This document shows positions 23,650 through 26,685 of a stretch of 64,000 nucleotides of DNA, piece by piece. The stretch spans positions 1 to 64,000 of the forward strand of contig JACQAP010000005.1 in the NCBI GenBank assembly GCA_016194905.1, given 5' to 3'. The notes under the pieces were generated by a model that saw only the letters and a program-made list of their open reading frames with translations, searched no databases and was not told the origin of the DNA. A program made the translations under genes and the position numbers. The stretch's first letter is position 1, and the number at the start of each line of letters is the position of its first letter. The DNA is from Betaproteobacteria bacterium. GTDB taxonomy: Bacteria > Pseudomonadota > Gammaproteobacteria > Burkholderiales > JACQAP01.

Positions 23650-23946
23650 GAACTGCTCTCCTCGGGAATCAAAAAGCGGGCTTCACCGGCCGGCGTGCCC
23701 GTCTCTAAGTATCTAATAGTCAAGCGCTTTATATCACGGCGCCGTACACAGGGTCAATGCACCAGCCAGCCATTCAAAATGGATGGGCCAGCCATTGATG
23801 ACAAGTTCGTTTTTAACGTTATGAGGTACTAAATCGGATTAACATGCTGATTGCATTCAACCTGAATTATCAGGCGTCCTAAATGACGCAAAATTAAAGC
23901 GTCTTTTAGGAAGTCTACTTCACACTAGACGTCGCCCAATACAACC
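23650..23946. other. Junction region before accessory island, with hairpins
   Basis: No gene. From about 23720 the sequence becomes visibly AT-richer than the flanking core. It contains a 13-bp inverted repeat with one mismatch (TCCTAAATGACGC at 23877-23889, GCGTCTTTTAGGA at 23899-23911), then a shorter one (GTCTA/TAGAC, 23913-23929). A sequence fitting RYYYAAC (ATTCAAC, 23855-23861) is also present, but no matching GTTRRRY partner was found, so I do not call an attC or attI site. The next gene has no visible ribosome site. Confidence 0.5.
23877..23911. repeat. 13-bp inverted repeat upstream of island gene
   Basis: Arms of 13 bases with one mismatch enclose the nine-base AT loop AAAATTAAA. 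There is no U-tract after it on the + strand, so a terminator for that direction is unlikely. It stands 35 bases before an ATG and could be an operator, a recombination structure or a folded leader. Confidence 0.55.
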
Positions 23947-25050
23947 ATGTCGTACTTCATTGATCTGTTCTCACCAGAAACGTACGAGGCTTTTGGTCGG
24001 TCGCCGCAGGACGTGTCGGGTTTCCGTATGCGTCACAAGGGGATGGCCGAGCGCATCAAAACTGGTGACAACTTTGTCTGTTATCTGACCCGCGTATCGC
24101 GCTGGTGTGGATTGCTGGAGGTCATCGAGGGACCCTTCATCGACAGCAAGCCGATCTTTGTTCCGGACAGCGACCCCTTTGTCGTCCGGTTTCGCGTCCG
24201 GACCAAGGTATGGCTGGCCATCGATCAAGCACTACCAATTCATGACGACAAGATCTGGCAAGGCCTGTCGTTTACGCGCACCCTCGAAAAGGGGTCCATC
24301 GCTTGGACGGGAAAGGTCCGAGGGAGCCTTGTGCGTCTGGACGACAAAGACGGCAAGTTTTTGGCCGACGCCCTGTCCGCCCAAGTTAAAGCACCGATTG
24401 TCTATGCTCTGGATGAACTGGACTTAAAGAAACTCACGACGCATACGATCAATCGTTCTGACAAGGTGGTCAGCGTTTCTGTTCCTGAAGACACTCCCGC
24501 TTCAGAGGAGACAATGCCTCCGCAAGAAGCGGAATCGCGTGAGTCAATCCAAATTCAGTCCCTCATAGCTCAGATCGGCGCTCGCATGGGAATGTCTATT
24601 TGGATACCACGCGCCGACCGAGGCGGCGTACTCCGGGAGTGGAAGAACGACCAGCAGCCACTTCTTGATCGCCTTCCGCTTAACTACGACGATACAACAC
24701 TGCGCACAATCGAGCAGATCGACGTTATATGGTTACGTGGCCGCTCAATCGTGCGAGCGCTCGAAGTCGAGCACACCACCGCCGTCTACTCCGGGATTTT
24801 GCGGATGGCGGATCTCCTTGCGCTTCAACCGAACATGGACATCAAGCTTCACATCGTTGCGCCGGTTGCGAAGCGAGAAAAGGTATTTCAGGAAATTCGT
24901 CGTCCCGTCTTTTCCTTGCTTGAAAAGGGTCCTCTCTCTGAGAGTTGCACGTACGTCTCATACGACAGTCTGCGAGAGTTGTCATCACAGAAGCACCTGT
25001 CGCACCTCTCCGATACTGTACTCGATGAGTACGCGGAAGAGGCGGAATGA
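23947..25050 (+). CDS. EVE-like domain plus nuclease-like C-domain protein
   Basis: Protein of 367 aa. The first 150 residues look like an EVE/PUA-type domain: MSYFIDLFSPETYEAFGRS, then GDNFVCYLTRVSRWCGLLEV and later repeated beta strands. EVE domains read modified bases. After a Ser/Glu-rich linker (about 180-200) the C-terminal part has IDVIWLRGRSIVRALEVEHT with Asp259 and Glu273/Glu275, a spacing compatible with a PD-(D/E)xK-like nuclease core, though the usual Lys is not obvious. The family name is not one I can state with certainty. It lies in a low-GC island, lacks a visible ribosome site and is followed after seven bases by an attC-like site, as in an integron cassette. A role in sensing and cutting modified foreign DNA is inferred. 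Confidence 0.6.
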   Translation: MSYFIDLFSPETYEAFGRSPQDVSGFRMRHKGMAERIKTGDNFVCYLTRVSRWCGLLEVIEGPFIDSKPIFVPDSDPFVVRFRVRTKVWLAIDQALPIHDDKIWQGLSFTRTLEKGSIAWTGKVRGSLVRLDDKDGKFLADALSAQVKAPIVYALDELDLKKLTTHTINRSDKVVSVSVPEDTPASEETMPPQEAESRESIQIQSLIAQIGARMGMSIWIPRADRGGVLREWKNDQQPLLDRLPLNYDDTTLRTIEQIDVIWLRGRSIVRALEVEHTTAVYSGILRMADLLALQPNMDIKLHIVAPVAKREKVFQEIRRPVFSLLEKGPLSESCTYVSYDSLRELSSQKHLSHLSDTVLDEYAEEAE

Positions 25051-25057
25051 ACGCGAC

Positions 25058-25144
25058 GTCTAACCCTTTGTTACTGCGGACAGGGAGCTTGCGCCGTGCC
25101 AATTCAACTGTCGTCGTGGCCCGCCGCACAACGATACGTTAGCC
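25058..25144 (+). other. attC-like integron recombination site 1
   Basis: Starts with GTCTAAC (25058-25064, fits RYYYAAC) and ends with GTTAGCC (25138-25144, near GTTRRRY). Folding the ends together gives G-CTAAC pairing, an unpaired stretch, then GTT.TGCGG pairing between 25069-25079 and 25121-25134. This is the two-box stem with spacer expected of attC. The length of 87 bp is in the normal range. It begins seven bases after the previous stop and ends five bases before ATG 25150. Confidence 0.7.
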
Positions 25145-25149
25145 GTCTC

Positions 25150-25668
25150 ATGACCATCAAGCACTCGCTACGCATTCCGCCCGGGAAGCTCAGGTACTAC
25201 CAAGAACGGTACGACTTCAGCGCCGAAGCGAACCTAGACAAGTACCACCAAATCGGTCCAAAGCAGGGCTACCTCACGGTTTCTCAACTACACGAAATCT
25301 GTCAATGGAAGTCGAAGCGCCGTGCCGACCTCGCGCTTTCGAACTCAGAAGCACTCGTCCGCGAAATTACTGCCTTCTCCTTCTCCGCAAAGTGCGAAGA
25401 GTCGAGGCTCGGGGCGCTCACGCTCCTCTCTGGCGTCCAGTTCCCAACTGCGTCGGTTATATTGCATTTCTGCGTTGATCAGTCATATCCAATCCTGGAC
25501 TTCAGAGCCATATGGAGCCTCGGTGTTAAGCAGCCTTCGCAGTACATAGTCGCCTTCTGGAAGGAATACGTTCAGCTCTGTCGTGCCGTGGCTGCAAAGC
25601 ATCGCCTCACTGTTCGGGAGTTGGATATGGCACTCTGGCAGTACTCCAGTGAACACCAAGGTGGCTAA
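25150..25668 (+). CDS. HhH-GPD-like (DNA glycosylase-like) cassette protein
   Basis: Uncharacterised protein of 172 aa. Residues about 88-107 (ALTLLSGVQFPTASVILHF) resemble the helix-hairpin-helix of EndoIII-type glycosylases, and YPILDFRAIWSL puts an Asp (117) where that superfamily has its catalytic Asp. The N-terminal half is basic and aromatic (RIPPGKLRYYQERYDF). The similarity is by motif only. No Fe-S Cys cluster is present. The gene lies between two attC-like sites, and its stop codon is inside the second, a typical cassette arrangement. ATG 25150 is chosen because it follows the attC end; GTG 25096 lies inside the site. Together with the EVE-like neighbour it suggests a DNA-base-modification theme. 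Confidence 0.55.
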   Translation: MTIKHSLRIPPGKLRYYQERYDFSAEANLDKYHQIGPKQGYLTVSQLHEICQWKSKRRADLALSNSEALVREITAFSFSAKCEESRLGALTLLSGVQFPTASVILHFCVDQSYPILDFRAIWSLGVKQPSQYIVAFWKEYVQLCRAVAAKHRLTVRELDMALWQYSSEHQGG

Positions 25669-25734
25669 CCCTTCGCCCCAGAAGGACACTACGCCGGCAA
25701 GCCGGCTTCGTGGCCCTGAGCTAGGACGTTGGGC
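25663..25734 (+). other. attC-like integron recombination site 2
   Basis: Begins GGCTAAC (25663-25669; its TAA is the stop of the preceding gene) and ends GTTGGGC (25728-25734, a full GTTRRRY match). The centre is a perfect hairpin GCCGGC-AA-GCCGGC (25693-25706), and outer segments CAGAAGGACAC and the complement of GTGGCCCTG pair imperfectly. At 72 bp with self-complementary arms it fits attC. The first box has G at the second position instead of a pyrimidine. Confidence 0.65.
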
Positions 25735-26331: not shown

Positions 26332-26457
26332 GAGCGTGTCTAGCGGGTCAGGCCTGCAGTGCGCATAACTAAAGATGGCGCGAATCGGCCGACCGGCCGT
26401 TGACATCGCTATTGCGTTCCGGCATTTTCCTTGTGGAGTATTCTCAAGGACAGTTCA

Positions 26458-26685
26458 ATGAACATCGACACCGGAAAGATCGACGAGACCGTTCTCGCGC
26501 TTCTCTATCTGACCCTCCATGATGGCAATCGCGCATGGAAATCTTATGACTGGGATGCGATGAACCGGTTGCACGAGAAAGGCCTGATTTCGGATCCGGT
26601 CAGCAAGGCAAAGTCTGTCACGCTGACAGAGCGCGGGCTGAAGGAATCGGAACGTCTGTTCGAAAACTTTTTCGGCAGCGTTTGA
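26458..26685 (+). CDS. DUF6429-like small protein
   Basis: Protein of 75 aa with a compact winged-helix-like pattern: alternating helices (DETVLALLYLTLHDGNRAWKS; WDAMNRLHEKGLI) and a short hairpin (KAKSVTLTERGLKES). This matches the small DUF6429 group I know from many proteobacteria. An AAGGA site lies eight bases before ATG 26458. Function unknown; a small DNA-binding or transcript-level regulator would fit the fold impression. Confidence 0.7.
   Translation: MNIDTGKIDETVLALLYLTLHDGNRAWKSYDWDAMNRLHEKGLISDPVSKAKSVTLTERGLKESERLFENFFGSV

Follow-up and report, generated by a model that had tools for sequence, protein, structure and literature searches.

The window analysed here is the 64-kb stretch of DNA at the start of contig JACQAP010000005.1 from a Betaproteobacteria bacterium. 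It carries two adjacent genes, of which gene 1 encodes an EVE domain fused to a nuclease-like domain and gene 2 encodes a small protein with the fold of the helix-hairpin-helix (HhH-GPD) DNA glycosylases. A sequence-only reading had proposed that the two form a pair that senses and destroys DNA with modified bases. Both open reading frames were confirmed, and the motifs cited in that reading were present at the positions given for them. The genes lie on the same strand about 100 bases apart, with G+C fractions of 0.544 and 0.543. A longer frame for gene 2 would begin at a GTG at position 25096. Because this codon falls inside an integron attC site, while the closest homologue (79% identical, from Accumulibacter) starts at the matching ATG and the numbering of Asp117 fits, the start was assigned to the ATG at 25150. 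A sigma-70 promoter scan found no promoter.

Table 1. Genes, domains and attC sites at the locus (window coordinates)
Feature	Position	Strand	Description or evidence
Left edge of gene 1	23908..23946	.	Similarity to a genome of the same genus (G003) stops; no recognisable attC half-site
Gene 1	23947..25050	+	EVE domain fused to PD-(D/E)XK-like nuclease, 367 amino acids
EVE domain, about residues 1-148	23947..24390	+	NCBIfam NF002008, E=3.1e-6; Foldseek EVE matches
Nuclease domain, residues 198-328	24538..24930	+	PADLOC REase_II; D259, E273 and E275 invariant in a 12-sequence alignment
attC site separating the two genes (R'' GTCTAAC ... R' GTTAGCC)	25058..25144	+	Covariance model R1, 31.0 bits, E=5.7e-5
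Gene 2	25150..25668	+	HhH-GPD-fold protein, 172 amino acids, ATG start
Helix-hairpin-helix region of gene 2, residues 91-107	25420..25470	+	Profile alignment with MutY/EndoIII/AlkA-type proteins
Asp117 codon of gene 2 (catalytic-position Asp)	25498..25500	+	Invariant in 49 homologues
attC site following gene 2 (R'' GGCTAAC ... R' GTTGGGC), with a more degenerate sequence	25663..25734	+	Covariance model R1, 28.5 bits, E=2.1e-4

The attC sites were identified in steps. The strict RYYYAAC/GTTRRRY pattern gave no match at full strictness, and a relaxed pattern, followed by a covariance model, was needed. The eight sites on which the model (R1) was based lie outside the window, beside an IntI integrase (contig C19), beside a broken IntI (contig C14), and at two relatives of gene 2. 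When the window was scanned with this model with filters off, only two matches fell below E=0.1, both on the forward strand and exactly flanking gene 2, while controls of 34.6 kb and 49 kb yielded nothing up to E=5. The host genome encodes a full-length IntI integrase (TIGR02249, 478 bits against a cut-off of 265) together with an attC array on C19, and the broken IntI of C14 is likewise accompanied by attC sites. Further attC sites were found on C21, C15, and C8 without a detected IntI, and no integrase was found beside the attC cluster of the window.

Relatives of gene 2 provided additional evidence for mobility of this kind. In Accumulibacter (L021), the homologue lies within a run of four attC sites, and nucleotide similarity between this copy and that of the window starts at R', ends at R'', and extends no further. 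At another locus (L029), gene 2 is followed by an attC site and preceded by integrase fragments, and at a third (L057) an integrase gene lies 139 bases upstream. No attC site was seen at most other gene-2 loci, and the family is therefore not confined to integrons. For gene 1, the corresponding junction in G003 holds other genes and no attC site, and three EVE-nuclease relatives (L086, L113, and L114) had no attC sites. There is strong evidence that gene 2 is an integron cassette, and gene 1 is likely to be one as well. Downstream of the two genes, the window also encodes a DUF6429 protein (26431-26685, E=1e-34), followed at about 26691 by a GTCTAAC that has no R' half to match and may be a decayed attC site.

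The two genes were not found to recur together. A relative of gene 1 was present at none of the 65 gene-2 loci, for which flanks of up to 7 kb were examined (less where contigs end), and gene 2 was beside none of the three other full-length EVE-nucleases. In a set of 399 genomes from the order, both genes are present only in the one to which the window belongs. Such a lack of co-occurrence is the outcome that the sequence-only reading had itself named as refuting it. Given the attC site between them and the two sites that flank gene 2, genes 1 and 2 appear to have arrived as separate cassettes, and their adjacency most likely reflects chance in the order of cassettes. The proposal of a modified-DNA defence pair is thus not supported as to the pairing, whereas a defence role of each gene alone stays plausible.

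The domain architecture suggested for gene 1 was supported. Residues 21-139 matched the NCBIfam family NF002008 (UPF0310), and the N-terminal part had a weak profile match in the PDB to PH1033 (E=0.016). An AlphaFold2 model, built from four sequences only, was of moderate quality (predicted local distance difference test, pLDDT, 70.6; predicted template modelling score, pTM, 0.44), and all 50 of its 50 best Foldseek matches in the PDB were EVE or YTH proteins. These included PH1033 (2hd9; E=6e-7, TMt 0.71), 2eve, THYN1 with 5-methylcytosine (5mC) DNA, and the EVE-HNH enzyme VcaM4I. YTH domains, which read N6-methyladenine (m6A), matched the model almost as well as the EVE proteins. Sequence and model hence support an EVE/PUA-type sensor domain in the N-terminal part. 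The C-terminal part matched PADLOC REase_II with E=8.7e-16 and no Pfam family, and the order of D259 and the ExE pair, noted in the sequence-only reading as PD-(D/E)XK-like, is kept throughout the alignment, supporting a PD-(D/E)XK-like nuclease domain.

Nuclease domains related to that of gene 1 were observed in several other contexts. Three proteins (L006:1501-2778, L007:1501-2778, and L118:1486-2763 on the minus strand) carry nuclease domains 59-68% identical to that of gene 1 behind a wholly different N-terminal part without EVE, which points to an exchange of the sensing part. Stand-alone relatives of about 420 amino acids (L016:4464-5726, L017:4281-5540, L018:4296-5561, and L019:4443-5726) are carried by plasmids of Polaromonas, Caballeronia, Cupriavidus, and Enterococcus, where they lie within islands for copper/heavy-metal resistance and no methylase immediately adjoins them. 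Their N-terminal parts look helix-hairpin-helix-like, and a fusion link to gene 2 was considered and rejected, with hhalign probabilities of 4% and 0.6%. An EVE-nuclease 77% identical to gene 1 was found on an IMG/VR contig (L086:5001-6505). It is preceded by a resolvase-like gene and followed by a gene of 135 amino acids, different from gene 2, whose start overlaps its end and whose product is PD-(D/E)XK-like by eye and without a Pfam match. Another EVE-nuclease (L113:3-1052) has tail-type phage genes as neighbours on a viral contig, which suggests that phages also carry EVE-nucleases.

Gene 2 had no match in Pfam, NCBIfam, or PADLOC, and matched one PHROG of unknown function. Its AlphaFold2 model reached a pLDDT of 94.5, and all 50 of the 50 best Foldseek matches in the PDB were HhH-GPD glycosylases (probability 1.00 for the best), with 8-oxoguanine glycosylases as the closest folds. 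The hhalign comparison with the host MutY/EndoIII/AlkA-type proteins (87.5%, E=3.6e-6, over 43 columns) placed Asp117 on their catalytic-position Asp. The resemblance to EndoIII-type glycosylases first seen in the helix-hairpin-helix motif and Asp117 was thus recovered in the predicted structure, and an HhH-GPD glycosylase fold is supported by sequence and model. Residues W53-K54, G95, A101-S102, Y113-PILDFRA-120 (including D117), W137, R156, and D159 were invariant among 49 members. The position of the catalytic Lys of EndoIII is occupied by Pro and the C-terminal iron-sulphur (Fe-S) cysteines are absent, so that a monofunctional enzyme would be expected. Assignment to the uracil-DNA glycosylase (UDG) or Brig type was rejected on the basis of the HhH-GPD fold.

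A scan with one genome per species identified gene-2 homologues at 65 loci in many phyla, whereas a scan of viral contigs found none and a viral fold library gave no significant match. Lysobacter niastensis carries two copies about 100 kb apart (L022:7001-7501 and L023:7001-7501), and the neighbourhoods of the two share further genes. The 45 operon-like neighbours of the family included three Type ISP restriction-modification enzymes (L030, L043, and L050), HsdM (L079), Mrr (L064), an Mrr-like protein (L032), a SIR2_2 protein (L038), a weakly matching GIY-YIG protein (L035), a DRT reverse transcriptase, and a SoFic protein. No restriction family was found among 45 distant control genes of the same loci, although the control set is of limited size and related Poribacteria account for three of the restriction matches. 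In those three, the gene-2 homologue is followed directly by the Type ISP gene (L030:7547-10606, L043:2092-5217, and L050:7547-9352). Many other neighbours are ordinary metabolic genes. In two proteins, a gene-2-like domain is fused to DUF6884 (L027:6995-8302, E=5e-49; L042:1382-3190, E=2e-50), a YaaA-like family whose member YfjM was reported among the interactors of abasic and RNA-base lesions (PMC11701544). The second fusion runs on into a GIY-YIG-looking C-terminal part without a Pfam match.

The reading that we favour, with a probability of about 0.62, is that the two genes are integron cassettes independent of each other, in a small cluster of attC sites with no integrase next to it; the integrase gene of the host genome lies on another contig. 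Gene 1 is most likely a stand-alone type IV (modification-dependent) restriction enzyme, and gene 2 is most likely a monofunctional HhH-GPD DNA glycosylase that has Asp117 and lacks the catalytic Lys. By homology to VcaM4I (PMC7897488), we infer that the EVE domain of gene 1 would flip out and bind a modified base in incoming DNA, and that the PD-(D/E)XK-like domain would cut near it. The host may tolerate such an enzyme because it has no C5-cytosine methylase: a search of the host genome limited to this class (PF00145) gave no match, while 10 of the 14 control genomes were positive. This is consistent with gene 1 as a reader of 5mC or 5-hydroxymethylcytosine, since a 5mC-directed nuclease requires that no such methylase be present. 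Gene 2 would excise an unusual base via Asp117 and leave an abasic site for other enzymes. The domains, folds, attC sites and lack of pairing are computational results, while the substrates, the cutting, the base excision and any effect on phages are inferred.

Several observations weigh against this reading. The attC matches of the window are moderate, and their bottom-strand folding is not unusual (z of -2.0 and -0.3), which may reflect ageing of the sites. In addition, gene 1 has an attC site on its 3' side only and lacks a GTTRRRY core site at its 5' end, so that its status as a cassette is less secure than in the case of gene 2. The nuclease domain of gene 1 was tied to no solved nuclease fold by Foldseek or by the PDB profile search, so that its assignment as PD-(D/E)XK is based on the motif together with the PADLOC homology. 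For gene 2, the Foldseek E-values were weak (best 0.008, TM 0.5), and none of the 49 members matched PF00730 at E<=1, for which reason it is classed as a divergent family of HhH-GPD fold and not as a member of the Pfam family.

The proximity, shared strand, and near-equal G+C of the two genes would also fit a single two-gene defence system in which glycosylase and EVE-nuclease act on the same modified phage DNA, as would the frequent occurrence of restriction genes next to the gene-2 family. The attC site that separates them, together with their failure to co-occur at any other gene-2 or EVE-nuclease locus examined or in any other of the 399 genomes of the order, makes such a system very improbable. 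Gene 1, for its part, might read another mark, such as an m6A-like base or modified RNA, and act as a toxin or an RNA-targeting nuclease. The near-equal YTH matches are compatible with this, and both a toxin-antitoxin setting for EVE domains and the possibility that some read adenine have been discussed (Bell et al. 2020). However, the best matches of the model are EVE proteins, including THYN1 with 5mC DNA and VcaM4I, the lack of a host C5 methylase is what a 5mC-directed nuclease requires, and no antitoxin candidate adjoins gene 1, so that another mark seems unlikely.

A stronger competitor concerns gene 2, which may be a glycosylase of ordinary DNA repair, removing for example oxidised or deaminated bases, that is carried on a cassette and has no role in defence. 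The 8-oxoguanine glycosylases as closest folds, the DUF6884 fusion with its link to lesions through YfjM, and the many metabolic neighbours all agree with repair. Against it stand the sporadic and mobile distribution of the family, the five HhH-GPD proteins that the host already encodes, and the presence of three Type ISP, HsdM, Mrr, DRT, SIR2, and SoFic genes among the adjacent genes when the controls had no restriction family. Ordinary repair is accordingly a serious possibility that falls short of an even chance. It is rather doubtful that gene 2 is instead a non-enzyme whose glycosylase-like fold serves to read bases or to bind DNA as a partner. Although the protein is small, lacks the catalytic Lys, and is fused to or located beside proteins that could supply catalysis, the catalytic-position Asp and the YPILDFRA motif are invariant across 49 diverse members, as expected of an active site. 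A defence role of gene 2 is plausible.

Considered as two independent cassettes, the genes differ in their relation to known systems. Fusions of EVE to PD(D/E)XK nucleases are already on record (Bell, Wolf, Koonin 2020, PMC7641849), where they are listed as putative type IV restriction enzymes. Gene 1 shares with these the order of EVE before nuclease in one protein and the lack of a detected companion methylase, and it differs in a nuclease part without a Pfam family and in its carriage on a probable integron cassette. Like VcaM4I, it combines an EVE sensor with a nuclease, and the EVE folds match, whereas the nuclease of VcaM4I is HNH and that of gene 1 is PD-(D/E)XK-like (PMC7897488). Gene 2 has the fold, the helix-hairpin-helix, and the catalytic-position Asp of OGG, MutY, EndoIII, and AlkA, while it is smaller, lacks a PF00730 match, the catalytic Lys, and the Fe-S cysteines, and has motifs of its own (WK and YPILDFRA). 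It would resemble the anti-phage DNA glycosylases Brig1 and Brig3 in its working if it excises modified phage bases, yet its HhH-GPD fold differs from the UDG superfamily, to which Brig3 is assigned (PMC13160076). Integron cassettes are described as reservoirs of anti-phage genes in PMC12444791 and the papers cited there. Like those in the work cited there, the present cassettes hold one gene each, are bounded by attC, and probably carry defence cargo, while they differ in forming a small attC cluster without an adjacent integrase and in that their defence cargo is putative.

Gene 1 adds a member to an already known kind, and gene 2, from an uncatalogued and divergent HhH-GPD family, is the more interesting half. 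The locus illustrates how integron cassettes can come to look like a defence operon, and both of its genes are candidates whose part in defence could be tested at little cost. Members of the gene-2 family occupy at least 65 loci in many phyla, yet the family has no Pfam entry. Tentatively, the members of this family might be defence glycosylases, unlike Brig1 and Brig3 in fold, that excise modified phage bases and spread as cassettes and beside restriction systems. If this were true, base-excision immunity would rest on a second fold and would have arisen at least twice.
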